From: Rubellimicrobium rubrum
GTDB taxonomy: Bacteria; Pseudomonadota; Alphaproteobacteria; Rhodobacterales; Rhodobacteraceae
Direction of reading: 5' to 3'
DNA: 60,321 nt
NCBI RefSeq assembly: GCF_006152115.1
Contig: NZ_VDFU01000025.1
Coordinates: 1-60,321 of the forward strand
Part shown: in pieces, positions 875 to 12,792 of the stretch
Position numbering within the stretch: position 1 is the first letter of the stretch
Layout: each line of letters begins with the position of its first letter
Notes under the pieces: model-generated
What the model was told of the DNA's origin: nothing
Seen by the model: the letters and a program-made list of their open reading frames with translations, nothing else
Databases searched by the model: none
Translations under genes and position numbers: made by a program

Positions 875-1312
875 TCAAGAGTATCTATGCCTAATGTAGG
901 AGGTATGCCCTACGATCGGGGCCCATGATCGGAGCCGGAAGATGACGGCGGTCGCGAGCGCGACGGCGGACAGGAACAGGTCGCGGCAACGCGTGGAGCG
1001 CATGGCGAGGGCGCGCCAGTCCGTGAGGCTCACAACGGCGTTCTCGATGCGGCAGCGTGTCTTGGTGAGCTTTCGGTTGTGGGTTGCGGGACAGTTCCGC
1101 TTGCTCTGAGCCGGGATGCAGACGCGCAGACCGCCGCGAAGACCCCGGGCCTTCAACTCGTCACGCAGCCAGTCGGCATCATAGCTCTTGTTGCCCAACA
1201 GGCGCGTCGCTGGCGGAAGGTCTGCCAAGAGCACCAGGGCACCTTTGGCATCGCTCTTCTGGCCGGGCGAGAGGAAGAAGCTGAGTGGCCGGCCACGGCC
1301 GTCGGGTTCCAC
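875..1312 (-). pseudogene. IS5-family transposase, C-terminal remnant
   Basis: The translation contains GRGRPLSFFLSPGQKSD, LLGNKSYDADWLRDELKARG and, near the end, RCRIENAVVSLTDWRALAMR with SAVALATAVIF. These match the catalytic half of DDE transposases of the IS5 family (the D of the YDADW segment and the E of the RIEN segment). The N-terminal half, with the first catalytic Asp, is missing upstream (coordinates above 1312), so this is a decayed fragment. It abuts the 3' end of the FixK-like remnant by about ten bases. Confidence 0.75.
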
Positions 1313-2177: not shown

Positions 2178-3704
2178 ATGACGCTAACCATCATGGGGGA
2201 AGAGGCTCCGACCGAAGAAGCGGCCACTGTTCCCGTCACGCCGCAGATCCGGCGCGATGTGACCCTGGGCGTCGTCATCGGCAGCCGTGCCTTCTTCAAC
2301 GGCGCACCGTGCCGTCAGGTGCGCCAAGAAGTGCTGGACCAACTGCAGCACCTAGGCGTCCGCGCCGTGATCCTGCCCTTTGAGGCGACGCATAACGGTG
2401 CGGTCCAATCGATCTCTGACGCGCAGTTGTATGCCGACTACTTCAAGCAGCACCGCGACCGGATCGATGGCCTTGTCATCTGCCTGCCCAACTTCGGCGA
2501 CGAGATCGCGATCGTGGAGTTGGTCAGCCGGGCGAAGCTCAACGTGCCGATCCTTCTGCAGGCTTCGAACGACGAGAACGACAAGGTTTCGGTCAAGGAA
2601 CGGCGGGACGCCTTCTGCGGCAAGATCAGCGTTTCCAACAACTTCTGGCAGTACAGCATTCCGTTCTCGGAAACGACCCTCCATACCGTCGATGCCGGAG
2701 GCGCCGAGTTCGCGGCCGACCTGGATCGCTTTGCCCGCGTTTGTCGCACCGTCCGGGGCCTGCGGAACGCTCGCCTCGGATCGATCGGGGCGCGCACCGG
2801 GGCGTTCCAGACGATGCGCTATTCGGAGAAACTGCTGCAGGACGCCGGCGTGACCGTGGTCACCGTGGACCTGTCCGAGATGATGGGCGCCGCCAACCGG
2901 CTCAGCGACAGTGACCCCGACCTTCTCGCCAAGATGGAGAGGATCAAGGTTTACGGCCGCATCCCGGCCCATATCTCGCCTGCGCAGATCCTGCGGCAGG
3001 CCAAGTGGTCCCTCACCGTGGACCGCTGGATTGTCGAGAACGGCTGCGACGCCTCGGCCATCCAGTGCTGGCGCTCGCTCCAGGACAACTTCGGCTGTGC
3101 CACCTGTGTCACCATGTCGATGATGGGTGAGGAGTTGATGCCCTCGGCCTGCGAGGTGGACATCATGGGCGCGCTGTCCATGTACACCCTGGCCCTCGCA
3201 TCAGCGGCGCCACCCGCGATCCTCGACTGGAACAACAACTTCGGCCGCGAGCCCGACATGTGCGTCTGCACGCACTGCGGCAACTTTCCCAAGACGTTCT
3301 TCGGCCACGTCCCCGAGGTTGGCGAGCTCGACGTTCTGGGCGAGACAATCGGGCGCGAGAAGTGCTTCGGAGCGGTCAAAGGCAAGGTGAAGGCCGGCCC
3401 GATGACCTACTTCCGGGTCTCGTCGGACGACAGGGCCGGCACTCTCAAAGCCTATCTCGGGCAGGGTGAGTTTACGGACGACCCCTATGCGATGGACGGC
3501 GGCATCGCGGTCTGCCGAGTGCCGCGTTTGCGCAACCTGATGCGCTTCGTCACTCAGAATGGCTTCGAGCACCACGTCGCCATGGTTCGCGGCCACCACG
3601 CCGAGGCCGTCAACGAGGCCCTCACCCGTTACCTCGGCTGGCCACTGTACGATCACGATACCCCGCCCGAGCCCATGCTCGTCCCCCCGCCGCGCCGCCT
3701 TTGA
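2178..3704 (+). CDS. L-fucose/L-arabinose isomerase-fold sugar isomerase
   Basis: A 508-residue protein predicted to interconvert an aldose and a ketose in the cytoplasm. The N-terminal and central parts (about residues 30-240) show the Rossmann-like layout of the fucose/arabinose isomerase superfamily. The C-terminal half carries MMGEE (315-319), DWNNN (350-354) and CVCTHCGNFP (362-371), places where metal ligands Glu, Asp and His would be expected. GGAGG at 2166-2170 favours the ATG at 2178 over an in-frame TTG at 2160. It is the first gene of an operon with a split transketolase and a sugar kinase; the next start lies 11 bases past its stop. Known D-apiose isomerases belong to another fold, so the substrate is open. 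Confidence 0.8.
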   Translation: MTLTIMGEEAPTEEAATVPVTPQIRRDVTLGVVIGSRAFFNGAPCRQVRQEVLDQLQHLGVRAVILPFEATHNGAVQSISDAQLYADYFKQHRDRIDGLVICLPNFGDEIAIVELVSRAKLNVPILLQASNDENDKVSVKERRDAFCGKISVSNNFWQYSIPFSETTLHTVDAGGAEFAADLDRFARVCRTVRGLRNARLGSIGARTGAFQTMRYSEKLLQDAGVTVVTVDLSEMMGAANRLSDSDPDLLAKMERIKVYGRIPAHISPAQILRQAKWSLTVDRWIVENGCDASAIQCWRSLQDNFGCATCVTMSMMGEELMPSACEVDIMGALSMYTLALASAAPPAILDWNNNFGREPDMCVCTHCGNFPKTFFGHVPEVGELDVLGETIGREKCFGAVKGKVKAGPMTYFRVSSDDRAGTLKAYLGQGEFTDDPYAMDGGIAVCRVPRLRNLMRFVTQNGFEHHVAMVRGHHAEAVNEALTRYLGWPLYDHDTPPEPMLVPPPRRL

Positions 3705-3715
3705 AGGACCTGCTG

Positions 3716-4540
3716 ATGAGGCTTCCCAACGACTTTCTTCCCCTGATCCGCGAGAAGGCCTTGTGGATGCGCCGGCGCGCCTTCCGCATGGTCTACGAGG
3801 CGCAGCTCGGCCATCCGGGGGGCGACTTCTCGGCGACCGACATCGTGGCCACGCTCTACTTCGGCGTACTGCGCCACGACCCGAAGAACCCCGCGGATCC
3901 GAACCGGGACCGTTTCGTGATGTCCAAGGGCCACGCCACGGGGGTTCTCTACACCGCACTCGCCGCGTCCGGCTTCTATCCCGAGGACTGGCTCGACACC
4001 TACATGCAGCCCGAGTCGCGGCTCAACGGGCATCCCAACCGCAACTATCTCCCGGGCGTGGAGACCAACACGGGGCCGCTCGGCCACGGCCTGCCCGTTG
4101 CCACCGGCATCGCCATCGCGGCCCAGCTCGACCGGGCGCCCTGGCGCACCTTCGTGCTGACGGGCGACGGCGAGCTCCAGGAGGGCTCGAATTGGGAAGC
4201 CATGATGACGGCGGGGCACCGCAAGCTCGCGGGCCTCACGCTCATCGTGGACCGCAACCGCCTCCAGCAGGGGGCAGGCACCGAGGAGACCAACGGCCTC
4301 GACCCCCTGGACGAGAAGATCCGCGCCTTTGGCTGGGACGTGGAGGTCGTGGACGGGCATGACCATGCCGCGCTGCTCGAGGTGCTGGGGGCGCCGGTCG
4401 GCGATCGGGTGAAGCCGCTTTGCGTGATCGCCAACACCGTCAAGGGCAAGGGCGTGTCGTTCATGGAGAACAAGGCCGCCTGGCACCACGGCGTTCCCAA
4501 CGCCGACCAGTTCGACCAAGCGATGAAGGAACTCGTGTGA
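3716..4540 (+). CDS. Transketolase, N-terminal (thiamine diphosphate-binding) subunit
   Basis: A 274-residue half transketolase. It has the thiamine diphosphate motif GDGELQEGSNWEA (from residue 150) ending in DRN (179-181), plus SKGHA and GHPNRNYLPGVE segments that line the active site in transketolases. The ATG at 3716 has GAAGGAC upstream; an in-frame TTG at 3701 overlaps the preceding stop. It must pair with the next gene, whose start overlaps its stop by one base. Split transketolases beside a sugar kinase are known for apulose-4-phosphate cleavage (AptA/AptB) and for sulfosugar breakdown; the kinase here favours a phosphorylated ketose. Confidence 0.9.
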   Translation: MRLPNDFLPLIREKALWMRRRAFRMVYEAQLGHPGGDFSATDIVATLYFGVLRHDPKNPADPNRDRFVMSKGHATGVLYTALAASGFYPEDWLDTYMQPESRLNGHPNRNYLPGVETNTGPLGHGLPVATGIAIAAQLDRAPWRTFVLTGDGELQEGSNWEAMMTAGHRKLAGLTLIVDRNRLQQGAGTEETNGLDPLDEKIRAFGWDVEVVDGHDHAALLEVLGAPVGDRVKPLCVIANTVKGKGVSFMENKAAWHHGVPNADQFDQAMKELV

Positions 4541-5493
4541 TGGCCCATGCCGCCCCCGTCCAAGCCGGCCTCCACGACTGCCGCGAGGCCTGGTCCGCGA
4601 CGCTCATCGCGCTGGCCCTGGCCGATCCCCGCGTGGTCGCCGTCGTCAACGACTCCGTGGGCTCCTCCAAGCTCGGCGGGTTCCAGAAGGCGTTCCCCGA
4701 GCGGCTCATCAACGTGGGCATTGCCGAGCAGACCATGGTGGCCGTGGGCGCGGGCCTCGCCAACGGCGGCAAGGTGCCGTTCGTCTCGGCCGCCGCTCCC
4801 TTCCTCACCGGGCGGGCTCTCGAACAGATCAAGGCCGACGCCGCCTACTCGAACGTCAACGTCAAGCTCGTGGGCCAGTCCTCGGGCGTGGCCTACGGCG
4901 AGCTCGGCCCCACCCACCACTCGATCGAGGATCTGGCTTGGCTGCGGGTGCTGAAGAACCTCGCGATCCTGGTCCCTGCTGACCCGGCCGAGACCGAGGC
5001 TGCGATCCGCTGGGCCCACGCCCACGAGGGCCCCGTCTTCATCCGGGTGAGCCGCATGCCGGTGCCCGACCTGGGCGAGCAGGGCGCCTACGAGCCCGGC
5101 CGGGCCGTCACGCTGCGCGAGGGCGGCGATGTGGCGATCCTGGCCTTGGGCACCACCGTCCACCTGGCCATGGCCGCCGCTGAGCCGCTCGCCGCTGAGG
5201 GGATCGCCGCGCGCGTGGTCAACCTGCGCTCGCTCGCCCCCCTGGACGAGGCGGCGGTCCTCGACGCTGCCCGGACAGGCGCCCTTGTGACCGTCGAGGA
5301 GGCCCATGTCTCGGGTGGCCTGGGCGGCGCGGTGGCCGAGGTCGTCACGGCCCATGATCCCGTGCCGGTGGAGCGCCTGGGCTTCCCGGGCTTCGTGCCG
5401 ACGGGCTCGGTCGAGTGGCTCTTCGACACGTTCGGTCTCTCACCCGAGGGCATCGCCGCCGCCGTGCGCCGCGCCATCGCGCGCAAGACGTGA
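4540..5493 (+). CDS. Transketolase, C-terminal (pyrimidine-binding) subunit
   Basis: A 317-residue protein with the Pyr domain and C-terminal domain of transketolases. NVGIAEQ (58-64) carries the conserved Glu that activates thiamine diphosphate. GPTHHSIEDLAWLR (about 127-140) is the usual ring around the substrate phosphate, and VTVEEAHVSGGLGGAV marks the C-terminal domain. The ATG shares its A with the stop of the N-terminal subunit, so the two are translationally coupled and form the active heterodimeric unit. The kinase follows with the same one-base overlap. Confidence 0.92.
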   Translation: MAHAAPVQAGLHDCREAWSATLIALALADPRVVAVVNDSVGSSKLGGFQKAFPERLINVGIAEQTMVAVGAGLANGGKVPFVSAAAPFLTGRALEQIKADAAYSNVNVKLVGQSSGVAYGELGPTHHSIEDLAWLRVLKNLAILVPADPAETEAAIRWAHAHEGPVFIRVSRMPVPDLGEQGAYEPGRAVTLREGGDVAILALGTTVHLAMAAAEPLAAEGIAARVVNLRSLAPLDEAAVLDAARTGALVTVEEAHVSGGLGGAVAEVVTAHDPVPVERLGFPGFVPTGSVEWLFDTFGLSPEGIAAAVRRAIARKT

Positions 5494-6956
5494 TGCGCAT
5501 CCTTGCCATCGACCAGGGCACCTCAAGCACCAAGGCGGTGCTGTGGGACCAGGATGGTGCGGTTGTCGCCCGTGCAAGCCGCCCGCTGGCCTCGTCCTAC
5601 CCCCAGGACGGCTGGGCCGAGCAGGACGCCAACGCCCTCTGGGATAGCGTCCGGGACGCCATCACCGACATCGTGGCCCAGACCGGCGCCGAGGGCATCG
5701 CAGGCCTCGCCATCGCCAACCAGCGCGAGACCCTGGTCGCCTGGGACGCGGAGACGGGCCGTCCCGTCGCCCCCGCGATCCTTTGGCAGGACCGACGCGG
5801 CGCGGCGCTCTGCGTGGCCCTCCTGGGCCAGGGCCATGGACCAGCCATCGAGGCCGCCACCGGCCTCGCCGCCAACCCGCTCCTGACGGCGGCCAAGCTC
5901 GGATGGCTCCTGGCACACCACGACGGCGCCCGCGGGCTCGCCCAAGCGGGGCGGCTCCGCGCGGGCACGGTGGACGTCTGGCTGCTATGGCGCCTGACGG
6001 ACGGGGCAACTTTTGCTACCGACCACGGGAACGCCTCACGCACTCAGCTCTTCGACACCGCGAGGCTTGCCTGGTCGGAGGAGCTTTGCGCCCTTTGGGG
6101 CGTTCCCTCCACCTGCCTTCCCGAACCGCGTCCCTCGGACGGGCTCTTCGGCGACCTCGCCGCCACCACGGCCCTGCCTGCGGGGCTCCCAATCCTCTCG
6201 GTGATGGGCGACAGCCACGCCGCGCTTTATGGGCACGGCGTGCGCGCGCCGGGGGCCGTCAAGGCCACCTTCGGAACCGGCTCCTCGCTCATGACCCTGT
6301 CCGGCTCGCGCGTGGCCTCGACGAACGGGCTTGCCAGCACCGTGGCCTGGTCCACCCAGCAAGGCGGGCCCGCCTACGCGCTCGAAGGCAACATCACCGT
6401 CTCGGCCCAGGCGGCGGCCTGGACGGCAGGGTTTCTTGGCCTCCCCGACGCGGCGGCCCTGTTCCGCTTGGCGGGCGAGGTCGACTCCTCCGAGGGCGTG
6501 ACTTTTGTTCCGGCCCTGGCCGGCCTGGGTGCCCCCCATTGGGACGAGGCCGCGCGCGGCACAATCACGGGGCTCAGCCTCGCCTCGCGCCCCGCCCACC
6601 TCGCCCGCGCCACTCTGGAGGCTATCGCGCTCCAGGTGGCCGACGTGTTCGAGGCCATGGAGCGGGACGTGGGCCACCGCCTGGACGCGCTCCGCGCCGA
6701 TGGTGGCGCCTCGAGTTCCGACCTCCTCATGCAGATCGAGGCCGACCTCCTGGACCGGCCCGTGACGCGCGGCGTGGTCGCCGAAGTGGGCGCCTTAGGA
6801 GCGGCCGCGATGGCCTTCGAAGCCTTGGGTCAGCCCATGGCCGCGGCCGCTCAGAAGGACAAGGGCCGCGCCTTTCGGCCCCGGATGGACCTGGACCGCC
6901 GCGAGACGATCCGATCGGATTGGCGTGAGGCCTTGCGGCACCTAACTGGACGCTAA
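5493..6956 (+). CDS. FGGY-family carbohydrate kinase
   Basis: A 487-residue sugar or polyol kinase with MRILAIDQGTSSTKAVLWD at the N-terminus (phosphate loop), WQDRR near 92, and in the C-terminal domain FGTGSSLM, GLGAPHWDEAARGTITGLS and RADGGASSSDLLMQ, the usual FGGY nucleotide-binding elements. The start overlaps the transketolase stop (TGATG). In context it should phosphorylate the ketose made by the isomerase at 2178, giving the donor for the transketolase. Sequence alone does not separate apulose, xylulose, erythrulose or glycerol kinases; the combination resembles AptK-AptAB. Confidence 0.88.
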   Translation: MRILAIDQGTSSTKAVLWDQDGAVVARASRPLASSYPQDGWAEQDANALWDSVRDAITDIVAQTGAEGIAGLAIANQRETLVAWDAETGRPVAPAILWQDRRGAALCVALLGQGHGPAIEAATGLAANPLLTAAKLGWLLAHHDGARGLAQAGRLRAGTVDVWLLWRLTDGATFATDHGNASRTQLFDTARLAWSEELCALWGVPSTCLPEPRPSDGLFGDLAATTALPAGLPILSVMGDSHAALYGHGVRAPGAVKATFGTGSSLMTLSGSRVASTNGLASTVAWSTQQGGPAYALEGNITVSAQAAAWTAGFLGLPDAAALFRLAGEVDSSEGVTFVPALAGLGAPHWDEAARGTITGLSLASRPAHLARATLEAIALQVADVFEAMERDVGHRLDALRADGGASSSDLLMQIEADLLDRPVTRGVVAEVGALGAAAMAFEALGQPMAAAAQKDKGRAFRPRMDLDRRETIRSDWREALRHLTGR

Positions 6957-7240: not shown

Positions 7241-8308
7241 CTAATCCGCCTTGTGGGCTGGTCCGGTGCTATTCCGGATCACCAGGGACAGGGGCAGCAC
7301 CTCGCGGCCAGCGGGGATGGCATCATCCAGGATCGCGGCGACTGCCCGTTCCGCAATTTGTCGATAAGGCTGCTCGACGGTGGTCAGAGAGGGAACGGCG
7401 GCTTCGGCTTCCGGTACGCCGTCGAAGCCCACAACCGATACATCTCCAGGAACTCGCAACCCTTGATGGTTCAGCCAGTCCAAAGCCGCCAGCGCGACAC
7501 GATCCGACATCGCCAGCAAAGCCGTGGGGCGAACCTCGCTGGTTTGGAACAGTTCGGCAAGTGCCGGCCCGATCATGCTGCCGTCATCCTGTCCGACCAG
7601 GATGGGGACATCCTCGGGGCCAATGCCAGCTTCGGCAAGCCCGGCCCAAAAGCCCCTGGCCCGTTCGCGGACATTCACGAAGCGCGTTGACCGAGCCAAC
7701 TCGGGTGAGGCTCTGCCTGGACCATCCCCCAGTCCGATCCCGATAATCGCAATGTGTCGATGTCCGAGAGCGACAAGATGACGGGCTGCGTCGCGGGCAC
7801 CTCCGAAATCGTCGATGTCCACTGCTGGAACGTCCGGCTCGGCGGTGTCCAGGGACAGCGCCACGAAGGGCAACCCTCGTCGCTGCGCGATCTCCACCAA
7901 GAGTTCCCGACCGGCGCAGCGAAGCAGGAAGCCATCCACCAACGCACTTTCGATGCCCCAGCCCAAGGGGCCACCCCTGCCGACCGAAACGAGCGCCAAG
8001 CCGGCTCCGCGGGCGTCGCACACGGCAGCCACCTCGCGCAGGAGACGACGTGCCCAGGGGTCAGCGAAGAAGTAGTCGAGCGGTTCGGCTGCCGCGACGC
8101 CGATCGCGTTGACTTTCCCGGCCCGCAGGAGACGGCCTTTCGGGCTTGGTCCCGCATAGCCAAGAGCCTGGGCTGCGGCATGGACCCGAGATCTCACTTC
8201 CTCCCGGACGAGCTCGGGGCGGTTGAAAACGTTCGAAGCCGTGCCTTGCGACACCCCGGCCCGCTCCGCCACATCCCGAAGTTTGATCGTCTTGGTCAGT
8301 CGCGTCAT
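7241..8308 (-). CDS. LacI-family transcriptional repressor
   Basis: About 355 residues: an N-terminal LacI helix-turn-helix (IKLRDVAERAGVSQGTASNVFN, with the hinge helix after it), then a periplasmic-binding-like effector domain with VDIDDFGGARDAARHLVALGHR and the C-terminal SVVGFDG and TTVEQPY motifs. I prefer the ATG at 8308 because the helix-turn-helix begins a few residues later; a longer reading from 8338 adds ten residues. Upstream are two perfect 14-bp operators typical of the family, which point to autoregulation. It sits between the isomerase-transketolase-kinase operon and the ABC importer and probably answers to the imported sugar or an intermediate. Confidence 0.9.
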   Translation of the reverse strand: MTRLTKTIKLRDVAERAGVSQGTASNVFNRPELVREEVRSRVHAAAQALGYAGPSPKGRLLRAGKVNAIGVAAAEPLDYFFADPWARRLLREVAAVCDARGAGLALVSVGRGGPLGWGIESALVDGFLLRCAGRELLVEIAQRRGLPFVALSLDTAEPDVPAVDIDDFGGARDAARHLVALGHRHIAIIGIGLGDGPGRASPELARSTRFVNVRERARGFWAGLAEAGIGPEDVPILVGQDDGSMIGPALAELFQTSEVRPTALLAMSDRVALAALDWLNHQGLRVPGDVSVVGFDGVPEAEAAVPSLTTVEQPYRQIAERAVAAILDDAIPAGREVLPLSLVIRNSTGPAHKAD

Positions 8309-8349
8309 GCCACCCCACCAACCGGTCCAGCCCGGCATCCTGCGGGCGT

Positions 8350-8460: not shown

Positions 8461-8889
8461 TTGGGTGAGTTCGGACAGGCTTCCTTGGGCAGCCCATCCC
8501 CATGGGTCCAAAGCTATGTGGGTCTACCCTATGTGTTGGGCGTCGCAGAGTGCGGTCATCGTGCCGCGCTCGTCTGGCGTGAGCGGTTCGGTCTCCACGT
8601 CAGCGCCTCGCCTGCTTTCGGGGACATGGCTGCTGCCCAGAACCACATCCAGGATCACCTGTCAGGCGGGGACTGGCTCCGCGTTTCGTCACCCCTCGAA
8701 GGCGACGCCGTCATCATGTGGAAAGGCGCGCACGTCTCGCATGTCGGCGTCTGGATCGCGCCCGGATATGTCCTGCACTGCACAAGGAGGGACGGAATGG
8801 TGCTGACACCAGAAGCGGAGTTGGAGCACCAGGGTTTTCCGGTCTACGGATACTTCCGTCACTATCATCAGCAAAGGCTGGCTGCGTAA
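8461..8889 (+). CDS. Orphan NlpC/P60-like cysteine peptidase or amidase
   Basis: A 142-residue protein with the compact fold of phage-type NlpC/P60 domains: WVQSYVGLPYVLG, then AECGH with the candidate catalytic Cys31, SHVGVW with His94 and VLHC with a third polar residue (His106), ending VYGYFRHY. A TTG at 8461 with GGAGG at 8451-8455 is the best start; a longer reading from 8350 would begin inside LacI operator 1. No signal peptide is visible, as is usual for tail-associated or cytosolic members. No phage genes lie nearby. It is probably a relic or a small peptidoglycan or peptide hydrolase. Confidence 0.6.
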   Translation: MGEFGQASLGSPSPWVQSYVGLPYVLGVAECGHRAALVWRERFGLHVSASPAFGDMAAAQNHIQDHLSGGDWLRVSSPLEGDAVIMWKGAHVSHVGVWIAPGYVLHCTRRDGMVLTPEAELEHQGFPVYGYFRHYHQQRLAA

Positions 8890-9210
8890 CCAATCTCTGC
8901 TGTATTGTGATGACGGTTTCCCACGCTCTCGGCCAACCCTGGTCTGTCGGAACTGTACGAGGCGGGGAGGACTTGTCAGGACCACGAGCGCCCGTCGTTG
9001 CCCGTGAATGCACCGGTTTGACTTGGGGCGTTTAACGCCGCGCAAGTCCGACCGGAGCGGTCTAACTCATCCCGGAGTCAAGGGCTATTCGCGCAGCCAC
9101 AAACACCTTGGTCCCGCGCAAGAGATAGGCACATGTTGAGCGATACCCAGAAAAGCGGGCATCCGTGGCCCTCGGCGATCCAGACGTCTCTGCCAGGTCC
9201 AGAGGTGTCA
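8890..9210. other. Gene-free stretch
   Basis: Between the convergent NlpC-like gene and the ABC binding-protein gene I see no supported coding sequence or clear repeat. A hairpin at 9211-9230 follows it. Confidence 0.5.
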
Positions 9211-9230
9211 CGCGCCGCCAGCGCGGCGCG
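9211..9230 (-). terminator. GC-rich hairpin after the ABC operon
   Basis: CGCGCCGC (9211-9218) and GCGGCGCG (9223-9230) form an 8-bp stem with a CAGC loop, beginning 13 bases past the stop of the binding-protein gene. No T tract follows on the minus strand, so it may protect the 3' end of the mRNA rather than act as a strong intrinsic terminator. Confidence 0.4.
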
Positions 9231-9242
9231 CGACGAGGAATT

Positions 9243-10196
9243 CTAGAACGGGCTGTCCGGGAAGTAGTACTGCTCGGCGTTCTCGGGTGTGACGAGTTCG
9301 GAGCCGATGATGAACCGGCCTGCCACCGGTGCGTCCGACACGAGCCCCAGGGCTGTGATCTCGATAGCGGAAGCAATCATCGAAGGCGGATAGGTGACAT
9401 TAGCAGGAACCATCGGATCGCTGTCGCGCGTGCGGGCGATCATCTCTTTCATGCCAGCGCCGCCCAACACGAACTTCACGTCGCTCCGGCCAGCGGCCTC
9501 GATGGCAGCCAGCACGCCAACGGCCATATCGTCATCCGAGGCCCAAACGGCGTCGATCTGAGAATGCTTGGACAGAAAGTCCTGCATGACCGTAAAGGCG
9601 TCGTCGCGGTTCCAGTTGCCATGCTCCATGCCCAGGACTTCGATGCCCGAACCGGCGATGGCTTCCTCGAACCCGGCCACGCGTTCGTTGTCGATGGTGG
9701 TGGGAATGCCGCGAAGGGCGACGACCTTGCCACCTTCGGGAAGGGCCGAAACCATGTACTCGCCGGAGACGCGCCCGAAACCGGGGTTGTCACCCGCGAC
9801 ATAAAGATCCTCGATGCCCGGCTCGGACAAGCCGCGGTCCACCACCGTGATCCAGACTCCCTGGTCGGCCACAGCCTTGACCGGTCCGGTCAGCGGCTCG
9901 GATTCAAAGGGCAGCACCACGAGGGCGTCGATGCCGCGCGTAGCCACCATGTCTTCGATGTCGCTGACCTGCTTGGACGGGTCGGAGGCGGTCGCCAGCA
10001 CGAAATCGAGCTGCGGATAGACCTCTTCCAGGCGCTCAACGGCAGCTTGCGCGAAGTAGTTCATGCCTCCGGCCCAGCCATGCGTAGCGGCCGGGATGGA
10101 GATGCCGATCACTTGGGTCTCTTCGGCCTCTTGAGCCCAGAGCGGCGCGGCTGACAGCGTCAACGCCGTCGTGGCCATCAGTGCGAGATGTTTCAC
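9243..10196 (-). CDS. Ribose-type sugar ABC transporter, periplasmic binding protein (copy 1)
   Basis: A 317-residue binding protein with a cleavable signal peptide (MKHLALMATTALTLSAAPLWAQ) and a type I periplasmic-binding fold: VIGISIPAATHGW, ALVVLPFES, TVVDRGLS, LRGIPTTIDNERVAGF, VWASDDDMAVGV. It captures a sugar for the permease and ATPase encoded just upstream. Translation starts at a GTG (10196) after GGGAGGATACCC. It is closely related along its whole length to the protein at 49742-50698, including the shared ending TPENAEQ(Y/F)YFPDSPF. As last gene of the operon it is 41 bases from the permease. Confidence 0.92.
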   Translation of the reverse strand: MKHLALMATTALTLSAAPLWAQEAEETQVIGISIPAATHGWAGGMNYFAQAAVERLEEVYPQLDFVLATASDPSKQVSDIEDMVATRGIDALVVLPFESEPLTGPVKAVADQGVWITVVDRGLSEPGIEDLYVAGDNPGFGRVSGEYMVSALPEGGKVVALRGIPTTIDNERVAGFEEAIAGSGIEVLGMEHGNWNRDDAFTVMQDFLSKHSQIDAVWASDDDMAVGVLAAIEAAGRSDVKFVLGGAGMKEMIARTRDSDPMVPANVTYPPSMIASAIEITALGLVSDAPVAGRFIIGSELVTPENAEQYYFPDSPF

Positions 10197-10237
10197 GGGT
10201 ATCCTCCCTTGTTTGTGCTGTTGCGGCCGTTCGAGCC

Positions 10238-11245
10238 TTAGCCCTCGGGCCGGTTTTCACGCTGCAGGATCACAGCGAGAACGATGATGACGCCCTGGAT
10301 CGCGCCGTTCAGATACGGGCTGACCCAGTCGGTCAGGTTCAGAAGGTTGTCGATAAGGCCCAGGATCAGGACGCCCACCACGGTGCCCCAGACCCGCCCG
10401 AAGCCGCCCTTGAGCATCGTGCCCCCGATGATGACGGCAGCGATGGCCTCCAGTTCCCACAGCACGCCCGTGGAACTGGACGCCGACCCGAGCCGGGGGA
10501 CATACATGATCGTCGCGATGCCAACGAGCAGCCCCAAGCCGACATAGGTCAGGAGCCTGATACGGTTGACGTCGACCGATGAATAGCGGGCTACCTGATC
10601 ATTGGAGCCGATGGCCGCGCAATAGCGGCCGAACGCGGTCTTGCGCATCCCGATCTCCCCCAGGATGGCCACGACCAGGAACACGATGATGGGCCAGCTC
10701 ACGCCCAGGAGACCACCGTAATAGACAGGACCGTATGCCTCTCTGAGGCCGAAATCGAGGCTGAGGGTTCCGCCGTCCGCGAGCCAAGTGACGAGGCTCC
10801 GGTAGATCCCCATGGTCCCCAGCGTGACGATGAACGCCTCGATCCGCATGTTGGTGATCAGGAAGCCGTTCAGGAACCCAGCTAGGAGCCCTGCCCCCAG
10901 CGCCACCGCCATCCCCACCAGGATCACGGAGATCCCTGCTCCCATCGACGGCACAAGAAGGTTCATGACCAGGATCATGAGCCCGGCAATGAAGGCAGCC
11001 ATCGACCCCACCGACAGGTCGAGCCCTCCAGCGGTGATGACGAAGGTCATGCCGACCGCGATGATGCCGATGAAAGCCGACCGGGCCAGCACGTTGGTGA
11101 TGTTGGCGTAGCTCAGGAAATTGGGGTTCATTAGGGCGCCGGCTACGATCAGCACCAAGAGCGCCACGATCGGCCCGAGCACGTGGAGATTGATGCCGTG
11201 GCCCGGCCCGGCGGGCTGCCCGGGCCGTGTGACTTGGGTGGTCAT
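10238..11245 (-). CDS. Ribose-type sugar ABC transporter, permease (copy 1)
   Basis: A 335-residue hydrophobic protein of the RbsC/BPD_transp_2 family with about eight to ten membrane segments. GGLDLSVGSM (about residues 72-81) is the family hallmark, and FIVTLGTMGIYRSL and AVIIGGTMLKGGFGRVWGT are typical later segments. It forms the inner-membrane channel. The start ATG overlaps the ATPase stop (ATGA) and has AAGGAG upstream. It is paralogous to the permease at 48710-49699. Confidence 0.92.
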   Translation of the reverse strand: MTTQVTRPGQPAGPGHGINLHVLGPIVALLVLIVAGALMNPNFLSYANITNVLARSAFIGIIAVGMTFVITAGGLDLSVGSMAAFIAGLMILVMNLLVPSMGAGISVILVGMAVALGAGLLAGFLNGFLITNMRIEAFIVTLGTMGIYRSLVTWLADGGTLSLDFGLREAYGPVYYGGLLGVSWPIIVFLVVAILGEIGMRKTAFGRYCAAIGSNDQVARYSSVDVNRIRLLTYVGLGLLVGIATIMYVPRLGSASSSTGVLWELEAIAAVIIGGTMLKGGFGRVWGTVVGVLILGLIDNLLNLTDWVSPYLNGAIQGVIIVLAVILQRENRPEG

Positions 11246-12792
11246 GCCGCTTCTCCTTTGGTCCGCGCTTCCAGCCCCATGGCGAGGCGGACGATGGCAT
11301 CCTCGGTCTTTTGCGGCCCTTCGACCCCGCCCGTGATACGGCCCTGCCTCATGACGAGCACCCGGTCGGCAAGGCCAATGACCTCGGGCAGTTCCGACGA
11401 GATCACGATGACGGACACCCCCTGCGCCGAGAGCCTGTGGATGAAGTCGTAGATCTGCTGCTTGGTCCCGATGTCGATGCCGCGCGTCGGCTCATCGATG
11501 ATGACGATGCGGGGGCCGGTCTGCATGATCTTGGCGATCAGCAGCTTCTGCTGGTTGCCGCCCGAAAGGTTGCGGACGCGGACAGCGCGAGACGGAGCCC
11601 GGATGTCGAAGTCGCGTACGGCCTTGTCGAGAGCCGTTTCTTCGGCCTTGCGGTCGAGGAAGGGCTTGGCAAACTGACCGAGGCTCTGAAGGGTCAGGTT
11701 CTCGCGCATTCCCATGTTGAGCACGAGGCCTCGTCCCTTGCGATCCTCGGTCAAGTAGACGAGGCCCTGCATCTGCGCGTCGCGGGGGCTGCGGATCGTC
11801 ACGGGGCGGCCTTCGATCTCGACCTGTCCGGTGTGACGCCGCAGAGCGACCAGTCCTTCCATGGTTTCCGTGCGGCCAGAGCCCACGAGGCCGGCGATGC
11901 CCAGGATCTCTCCGCGCCTCAGGTCAAAGGACACGTCGTCGGCGTAACGCGGCACGGTCAGGCCACGCACCCGGAGGGCGATGTCCTGTCCCAAGGCCGA
12001 GACGCGCTTGGGAAAGAGATCAGACATCTCGCGTCCGACCATGGCGTTCGCCATGGCGTCCTCGGTCATAGCGGACGTCGGTCCGCTTTGGACCACCCGG
12101 CCGTCCCGCATGACCGTGACCCGGTCCGAGATGCGCTTGACCTCATCGAGCTTGTGGGAGGTGAACAGGATGGCCACTCCCTCTTTCCTGAGACGGTCCA
12201 CCTGCTCGAACAGGACCTCGGCTTCGCGGTTGGTGAGCACGGCCGTCGGCTCGTCCATGATGAGGACCTGCGCATCCCGGCCGAGGGCCTTGGCAATCTC
12301 CACCATCTGCTTGTCCGAGTTCGAGATGTCCCGCACCCGTGCATCCGGATCCACGCGGCAGTGAAGACGATCCAGCAGTGCCACCGTCTGGGCCCGCATC
12401 GCATGCTTGTCGAGGAACAACCCCCGTCTCAGCTCACGCCCGAGGAAGACGTTCTGCTCCACCGTAAGCTGATCGGCCAAGTTGAACTCTTGGTGGATCA
12501 GAACAACCCCGCGGCTCTCGGCTGCCTGGCTGCCACCAAAGACCATGGCTTTGCCGTCGAGCCGCACCTCACCCGAACTGGGGGCGAGGTAACCGGACAT
12601 GATCTTCATGGTCGTGGATTTGCCTGCGCCGTTCTCGCCGATCAGAGCATGAACCTCGCCGGGCAACAGGTCGATCGAGACATCGAACAGGATCTGAACA
12701 GGGCCGAAACTGCGGTTGACAGCCGACAAGGACAGCTTTGCTGCAGTCAAATCCGTCCCCCTCGCGGATGGCAACATTGTGCCATCGGCCAT
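11242..12792 (-). CDS. Ribose-type sugar ABC transporter, duplicated ATPase (copy 1)
   Basis: A 516-residue RbsA-type protein with two nucleotide-binding domains. Domain one has Walker A GENGAGKST (52-60) and Walker B VLIMDEPTAVL. Domain two has the usual degenerate Walker A (GLVGSGRTE), the signature LSGGNQQK and Walker B IVIIDEPTRGIDIG. It energises import from the cytoplasmic face. It is the first gene of the ATPase-permease-binding protein operon, preceded by a good promoter at 12843-12871. No strong ribosome site stands before the ATG at 12792; an ATG five codons later is possible. Confidence 0.93.
   Translation of the reverse strand: MADGTMLPSARGTDLTAAKLSLSAVNRSFGPVQILFDVSIDLLPGEVHALIGENGAGKSTTMKIMSGYLAPSSGEVRLDGKAMVFGGSQAAESRGVVLIHQEFNLADQLTVEQNVFLGRELRRGLFLDKHAMRAQTVALLDRLHCRVDPDARVRDISNSDKQMVEIAKALGRDAQVLIMDEPTAVLTNREAEVLFEQVDRLRKEGVAILFTSHKLDEVKRISDRVTVMRDGRVVQSGPTSAMTEDAMANAMVGREMSDLFPKRVSALGQDIALRVRGLTVPRYADDVSFDLRRGEILGIAGLVGSGRTETMEGLVALRRHTGQVEIEGRPVTIRSPRDAQMQGLVYLTEDRKGRGLVLNMGMRENLTLQSLGQFAKPFLDRKAEETALDKAVRDFDIRAPSRAVRVRNLSGGNQQKLLIAKIMQTGPRIVIIDEPTRGIDIGTKQQIYDFIHRLSAQGVSVIVISSELPEVIGLADRVLVMRQGRITGGVEGPQKTEDAIVRLAMGLEARTKGEAA

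Follow-up and report, generated by a model that had tools for sequence, protein, structure and literature searches.

A predicted D-apiose operon of Rubellimicrobium rubrum that begins with an isomerase of the AraA/FucI fold

The window analysed here, a 60,321-nucleotide stretch of Rubellimicrobium rubrum DNA, contains genes for an isomerase, two transketolase halves and an FGGY kinase (Table 1), and our analyses confirmed the proposal of a first-pass annotation that the four form a single operon at 2178-6956. A transposase fragment 5' of the operon occupies the place where importer genes are found in many relatives. The DNA homology of the R. thermophilum locus with the window begins only at 2259.

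Table 1. Genes and other features of the operon and its surroundings in the window.
Feature	Position	Strand	Evidence and remarks
Proposed D-apiose isomerase, AraA/FucI fold, 508 aa	2178..3704	+	
Transketolase N-terminal (ThDP-binding) half, AptA-like	3716..4540	+	PF00456 1.8e-43; tree; alternative start TTG at 3701
Transketolase C-terminal half (pyrimidine-binding and C domains), AptB-like	4540..5493	+	PF02779 1.7e-36, PF02780 3.3e-29; tree
FGGY kinase, proposed D-apulose kinase, AplK-like; profile GlpK-like	5493..6956	+	PF00370 6.9e-58, PF02782 1.9e-34; tree
DDE transposase fragment	875..1312	-	PF01609 E 6.1e-5, 23.3 bits against a cut-off of 23
LacI-family regulator	7241..8338	-	PF00356 and PF13377
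CUT2 ribose-type importer	9243..12792	-	Pfam; binding protein 9243-10196, permease 10238-11245, ATPase 11242-12792

The first protein of the operon had, over its whole chain, the fold of the AraA/FucI isomerase superfamily instead of an ApsI-type TIM barrel. Its identity to AraA and FucI, whose gene partners also differ, was only 10-14%, and it had no PDB sequence relative at E below 0.4. Comparison of the isomerase alignment with the profiles of E. coli AraA and FucI gave probabilities of only 7% and 6%, respectively, so that the protein is assigned to the superfamily by its fold and by PF02952. Residues E326, D328, D350, H366 and H465 were invariant in the isomerase sequences (37/37 and 11/11), and by analogy with the AraA/FucI sites they may be metal ligands. 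The protein is predicted to be, probably, a metal-dependent aldose-ketose isomerase.

The AptA-like half was 78-80% identical to its counterparts in Rhizobium operons of the TIM-barrel type and 45% identical to AptA of E. coli SE15, and the AptB-like half was 45-49% identical to AptB of that strain. In the transketolase tree, from which sequences beyond the length limits had been dropped, the window pair grouped with the AptAB-type split pairs of TIM-type operons, and the genome's own single-chain transketolase stood far from it. Based on this tree, in which the outgroup branch was long, a housekeeping transketolase was ruled out.

The kinase was 43% identical to SE15 AplK. Its closest curated profile was GlpK (TIGR01311), but its score of 479 bits was under the cut-off of 590, as was that of SE15 AplK (495 bits). 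In the kinase tree, a clade of 31 sequences joined the window kinase to the kinases of TIM-type operons with an SH-aLRT value of 100, and the link to the SE15 AplK clade and GlpK was weakly placed. The GlpKs sat within one broad kinase clade, with the window kinase close to GlpK, and the genome's own GlpK (contig C80) fell into a clade separate from the window kinase; glycerol kinase was rejected on this separation. The rooting of both trees was weak because their outgroups were long branches. Trees of the kinase and transketolase halves had been suggested as a check in the first-pass annotation, and the firm grouping with glycerol kinase and housekeeping transketolase that it named as a refutation was not observed.

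A scan for relatives identified at least 579 isomerase relatives among at least 596 stretches, of which the best 80, with identities down to 44%, were looked at; many of the others could be remote homologues that serve a different function. Among these best 80 of at least 579 loci, 59 had an AptA-type gene at 50% identity or more, accompanied in 55 by the kinase, and the 21 that had none at this threshold included 7 on loci of at least 18 kb. The 80 loci were not independent, since about half were from Rhodobacterales. The operon was also present in Rhodobacter capsulatus DSM 1710 (L083). None of them had a TIM homologue at 40% or more. As a control, distant PF02952 homologues were inspected at 10 loci (L053-L062, 10 of 29 places), none of which, at the thresholds applied to the 80 loci, had an AptA-type gene, an AplK-like kinase, a 4RY0-type binding protein or an apiosidase-like gene.

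In three transketolase/kinase lineages the isomerase was replaced by a TIM barrel or by a pair of short-chain dehydrogenases (SDRs). Rhizobium operons had an AP_endonuc_2 TIM barrel in the position of the isomerase, and their kinases and transketolases were nested inside the window's clade (SH-aLRT 99 and 98, respectively). E. coli SE15, which has the SDR pair, formed a group with Rahnella, Klebsiella and Sodalis that had a support of 100 in each tree; in these three genera an AraA/FucI-type isomerase was present and no SDR pair was found in the locus DNA examined. Most loci of an Agrobacterium-type clade had the SDR pair, and one from Aliiruegeria (L092) had the isomerase and no SDR in the locus. 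Two loci (L088 and L103) contained the isomerase together with a complete SDR pair, which indicates redundancy rather than replacement, and L098 was similar, its second SDR being cut by the locus end. The clean swap in a Deinococcus-type clade was between TIM barrel and SDR pair, the AraA/FucI-type isomerase being absent. These replacements beside orthologous transketolases and kinases support the earlier suggestion of a non-orthologous isomerase in an apulose-type route.

A D-apiose transketolase pathway consisting of ApsI, AplK, AptA and AptB was reportedly described by Carter et al. in 2018. The locus resembles it in having a split transketolase, an FGGY kinase, a sugar importer and a repressor, and the order of reactions would be the same. 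However, the isomerase of that pathway is a xylose-isomerase-like TIM barrel, and the regulator and importer of R. rubrum also differ. The E. coli SE15/ST131 cluster is alike in AptA, AptB and AplK, which in SE15 were 79, 76 and 72% identical to those of the Rahnella cluster, but it has two short-chain dehydrogenases for the isomerase, a SorC-type regulator and an importer with DUF2291.

The SE15 genes ECSF_RS02670-02715, which are those of our locus L039, are taken as an apiose cluster in the excerpted text of PMC13001218. According to the same excerpts, four cluster-bearing Escherichia strains and Pectobacterium grew on D-apiose and K-12 did not, and the Escherichia cluster is without apsI yet functional. 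The SE15 anchor is an association, in that cluster-bearing strains grew, SE15 itself was outside the growth test and the excerpts describe no gene deletion. The excerpts of PMC11968277 and PMC8112048 do not decide the substrate or ligand. In 11 of 49 genomes, against 0.25 expected, apiosidase-like genes (PF13204) lay no more than about 10 kb from the isomerase. The chance model behind the expected value takes no account of the clustering of glycosidases at sugar loci, and six of these 11 matches scored only 57-80 bits. Operons of Listeria and Monoglobus also carried PF13204 genes. In R. thermophilum, the linked binding protein was 76% identical to PDB 4RY0 and matched PDB 5IBQ, which we take to contain apiose, at 477 bits. 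Because the title of 4RY0 refers to a ribose transporter, the binding protein cannot distinguish ribose from apiose.

Based on these comparisons, we consider it likely that the operon encodes a D-apiose transketolase pathway opened by an AraA/FucI-fold, probably metal-dependent isomerase, all activities being predicted. The first-pass annotation had left the choice between apiose and another aldose open, and the comparative evidence favors D-apiose. Besides the conserved co-occurrence of the genes, the analysis showed purifying selection. The isomerase would convert D-apiose to D-apulose, which the FGGY kinase would phosphorylate with ATP to D-apulose 4-phosphate. The split transketolase would then move the C1-C2 glycolaldehyde unit from apulose 4-phosphate onto glyceraldehyde 3-phosphate. 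One product would be D-xylulose 5-phosphate; the other would be dihydroxyacetone phosphate, since C3 of apulose is a branched carbinol. These intermediates are those of the known apiose route. The final step would account for the need for a dedicated transketolase. In one Rhizobium operon the kinase was followed by tpiA, as would be expected if dihydroxyacetone phosphate were made.

A route for ribose or another pentose, in which the isomerase would form ribulose or another ketopentose for phosphorylation by the FGGY kinase and the split transketolase would only provide extra capacity, seems unlikely. Pentoses are substrates of AraA/FucI-fold isomerases, the linked binding protein belongs to the ribose type, and 4RY0 has a ribose transporter in its title. 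However, a ribulose 5-phosphate-type product feeds the ordinary pentose phosphate pathway, so that a dedicated transketolase would be superfluous, yet the split transketolase was present at 59 loci (best 80 of at least 579). The recurrence of apiosidase-like genes near the isomerase also speaks against this route, as does the apiose growth of Escherichia strains bearing the SE15-query cluster (PMC13001218, as excerpted). Less probable again is a route for a tetrose, for a deoxy-sugar or for some as yet unknown branched sugar with a chemistry close to that of apiose. Sequence cannot give the exact substrate, deoxy-sugar isomerases occur among AraA/FucI-fold enzymes, and 21 loci (best 80 of at least 579) were missing an AptA-type gene at 50% or more, but apiose is indicated by the link to SE15, by a binding protein of the 4RY0/5IBQ type and by the apiosidase-like genes.

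The sole NCBIfam match of the isomerase was to the sulfoquinovose isomerase SftI (NF048012), and a transketolase variant of sulfoglycolysis is on record. The isomerase could accordingly be imagined to form 6-deoxy-6-sulfofructose for cleavage by the split transketolase. We regard such a sulfosugar route as very improbable and rejected it, as the isomerase scored 84 bits with the SftI model, whose cut-off is 700, and the FGGY kinase, which this route would not need for a ketose, was kept at 55 loci (best 80 of at least 579). In addition, no sulfoglycolysis partner was seen, and there was no sulfonate gene among the 25 commonest Pfam families (96 of 162 flanking proteins, with 115 rarer families outside this set).

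The apulose-type route with a non-orthologous isomerase is the part of the first-pass reading that stood. The LacI repressor and the ribose-type importer next to the operon, which that reading had included, were not supported as parts of the pathway. In the best-hit table, which covered the best 80 of at least 579 related loci and among them 25 shorter than 18 kb, the window LacI had no match above 30% identity and the CUT2 binding protein none above 25%. Both were rejected as pathway members, being absent beside the operon in the neighbourhood table of these relatives. Most relatives had another importer and most Alphaproteobacteria a DeoR-type regulator, as did the Rhizobium operons. The window binding protein was closest in the PDB to 4JOQ (469 bits) and just 28% identical to that of the Rhizobium operon; the CUT2 importer is a possible candidate for a substitute apiose importer. 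The best match of the usual importer's binding protein in the R. rubrum genome was at 30% identity or slightly above, and the DeoR gene of R. rubrum was near the end of another contig. Whether R. rubrum itself uses apiose is uncertain because its genome had no PF13204 match and lacks the usual importer.

Beyond this operon, we lean towards the view that D-apiose isomerase activity evolved independently in an AraA/FucI-fold family of at least seven phyla. This family would replace the TIM barrel or the dehydrogenase pair beside a conserved core of kinase and transketolase, as one of three unrelated entry solutions, and would include the diverged Listeria/Monoglobus branch (about 25% identity) with its apiosidase-like genes. 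A keyword match of the open-licence literature returned no paper linking D-apiose with fucose isomerase or arabinose isomerase, and among the matches listed "apiose isomerase" appeared in one paper and "apulose" in none. Apiose is the sugar through which borate cross-links the pectin rhamnogalacturonan II, and it is present in many plant glycosides. If the proposal is correct, many genes labelled in databases as L-fucose/L-arabinose isomerase family, together with a set of GlpK-like kinases, would gain a specific function, and apiose use would reach gut and soil phyla. It would also represent a non-orthologous replacement within one operon that is testable with four purified proteins.

Some parts of such systems were also observed apart from one another. 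TIM homologues of Pantoea (62%) lay outside any such operon at the one locus viewed, and Erwinia sp. E602 had a transketolase pair of the SE15 type together with a sugar-binding regulator, with no kinase or entry enzyme annotated within 8 kb on either side. On a Croceibacterium plasmid, the transketolases and kinase were together and the TIM barrel was elsewhere on the plasmid.

The first-pass annotation had described an operon of four genes in the window, encoding an isomerase of the AraA/FucI fold, the two halves of a split transketolase (AptA/AptB) and an FGGY kinase, and all four were found to be present and intact, with gene overlaps at 4540 and 5493 (see table). In comparison with Rubellimicrobium thermophilum, the closest named relative, dN/dS was approximately 0.1 for the isomerase and both transketolase halves and 0.26 for the kinase, whose gene in R. 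thermophilum aligns in two pieces. A single-chain transketolase is encoded separately in the window's genome, as is a GlpK-like kinase (on contig C80) that grouped in the tree with the GlpKs of Azospirillum and Thermus (100 SH-aLRT).

Locations of the operon genes and of associated genes in related loci (L numbers) and in contig C12 of the same genome
Feature	Location	State
Isomerase	window 2178-3704	intact
Transketolase halves	window 3716-4540 and 4540-5493	intact
FGGY kinase	window 5493-6956	intact
DeoR regulator	C12 70542-71309	
PF07632 gene	L119:11404-12882	
PF07632 genes	L123:4628-5923 and 8461-9885	
PF07632 gene	L128:3523-4962	
PF07632 gene	L130:7131-9128	
PF07632 gene	L134:17493-18782	
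PF07632 gene	L187:5005-6459	
PF13204 near isomerase	L063, L064, L090, L100, L120, L121, L123, L124, L127, L129, L132	

In the proposed pathway, apiose would be converted to apulose, apulose to apulose 4-phosphate, and the latter to xylulose 5-phosphate and dihydroxyacetone phosphate, which are the products of the known apiose route. The pathway type itself is already known. No description of the AraA/FucI-fold isomerase family in the apiose pathway was found in the open-licence literature, and its newness there is provisional. The putative substrate of the isomerase, proposed from replacement at the entry step and from neighboring genes, is one of the two weakest links; the other is transport in the window's own genome.

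Replacement was evident in four Rhizobium-type operons (L040, L041, L044 and L179), in which a TIM barrel (PF01261, 2.4e-19) occupied the position of the isomerase, and which otherwise carry the gene set of most alphaproteobacterial relatives: an importer, a DUF2291 protein, a DeoR regulator, both transketolase halves and the kinase. In the kinase tree, L040 and L041 nested in a 26-row clade (99 SH-aLRT) that includes the window's kinase, and in the transketolase tree L040, L041 and L179 belonged to a group of 25 rows, itself part of the 29-row clade that contains the window's transketolase (98 for each). The Rhizobium-type TIM protein matched PDB 3KTC with 423 bits, which we take to be ApsI, the D-apiose isomerase, of Pectobacterium.

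A second pairing sets E. coli SE15, which has two short-chain dehydrogenases (SDRs), against Rahnella, Klebsiella and Sodalis, which have the AraA/FucI-fold isomerase; AptA was 78-79%, AptB 73-77% and the kinase AplK 70-72% identical between them, and the SorC-type regulators of SE15 and Rahnella were 72% identical. The best matches to the SDRs in the Rahnella and Sodalis loci were only 37% or less. Passages of a published study (PMC13001218) give SE15 genes ECSF_RS02670 to ECSF_RS02715 as the D-apiose cluster query, describe Escherichia as having two putative oxidoreductases in place of apsI, and report growth on D-apiose by four cluster-bearing Escherichia strains and Pectobacterium but not K-12, SE15 being outside the tested strains.

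A third pairing lies in an Agrobacterium-type clade: the SDR pair is present in L045, L169, L180, L181 and L183, L092 (Aliiruegeria) has the isomerase and no SDR in its locus, and L085 has the isomerase in a locus truncated at the regulator. In a Deinococcus-type clade, the TIM barrel (L178, L182) was swapped with the SDR pair (L043, L167, L168, L170), and the isomerase occurred only alongside SDRs (L098). The isomerase and SDR routes can coexist, since L088 and L103 have both.

Genome contigs were scanned using an 11-isomerase alignment, which yielded at least 596 pattern matches and at least 579 relatives; the best 80 were kept. Going by their record titles, these 80 belong to Alpha- and Betaproteobacteria, Chloroflexota, Clostridia, Verrucomicrobiota, Acidobacteriota, Bacteroidota and Trueperaceae, and roughly half of them to Rhodobacterales. 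Among their loci, 59 had an AptA-type half (at least 50% identity), 55 an AptA-type half and kinase, 32 a binding protein at least 55% identical to those of Rhizobium, Rahnella or E. coli, and none a TIM barrel of at least 40% identity. For the 55 loci of at least 18 kb, the AptA-type half was present in 48 and accompanied by the kinase in 47. As a control, 29 distant homologues (about 24-32%) were found, and none of these partners occurred in any of the 10 loci fetched. Across 390 genomes of the same order, the close isomerase family was identified in the window's genome and 7 others, 2 of the 7 as fragments. Close relatives of the isomerase in L067, L069, L071, L077, L086, L087, L107 and L108, several of which are incomplete loci, had no AptA-type transketolase or such kinase above thresholds in the available DNA.

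Genes near the isomerase also point to apiose. The operon-linked binding protein of R. thermophilum was 76% identical to PDB 4RY0, titled as ribose transporter binding protein RHE_PF00037 of Rhizobium etli, and matched PDB 5IBQ, presumably an apiose complex, with 477 bits. In one Rhizobium operon a triose-phosphate isomerase gene follows the kinase, as expected if dihydroxyacetone phosphate is produced. The apiosidase-like family PF13204 was sought in 49 isomerase genomes (drawn from 50 of the 80 loci) and 14 control genomes, and was matched in 27 and 2, respectively. In 11 of the 49 a match lay no more than about 10 kb from the isomerase (by coordinates, tblastn and hmmscan), compared to 0.25 genomes expected from uniform placement of hits; five of these matches were strong (174-390 bits) and six weak (57-80 bits). 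Diverged isomerases (about 25% identical to the window's) were observed with the same transketolase-kinase core and an apiosidase-like gene in Listeria monocytogenes (L036) and Monoglobus pectinilyticus (L037), with PF13204 at 3.6e-93 and 3.2e-16. The Listeria locus also has a beta-glucoside-type PTS, which suggests import of apiose-bearing glycosides.

The importer block usual in relatives is absent from the assembly of the window's genome, in which the best-scoring match to the linked binding protein was only 30% identical. DNA homology to the R. thermophilum locus begins at 2259, within the isomerase gene, and the 5' flank of the operon contains a transposase fragment. The enzyme genes lie just after the contig start (1-2178), and the DeoR regulator was kept (79%) on C12, 1.3 kb from the contig end, with no match to importer genes in the DNA following it. 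An ancestral divergent operon seems to have been broken, leaving DeoR on C12 and the enzymes on the window's contig, while the intervening importer block was not found in the assembly; as there are contig ends near both pieces, there may be an assembly gap. The downstream LacI regulator and 4JOQ-type importer could be a substitute. No PF13204 match was found in the window's genome, therefore free apiose or another glycosidase would be needed. Inspection by eye showed CGAAA-containing repeats, which could be DeoR operators, in the divergent promoter region that precedes the isomerase gene in L063, L064, L065 and L083 (Rhodobacter capsulatus); the window has only a degenerate version of them.

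Genes of PF07632 (Sde182 nucleoside-hydrolase-like) were repeatedly found near the isomerase. This was the commonest family among 96 flanking proteins scanned (11/96), and was present in 18 of 49 isomerase genomes versus 2 of 14 controls. Nucleoside-hydrolase folds cleave furanosides, and as apiose is a furanoside, PF07632 is an apiosidase candidate and may represent an unrecognised apiosidase family, an idea for which no published support was found in the open-licence literature. On a Croceibacterium plasmid, a PF07632 gene adjoins a TIM-barrel isomerase.
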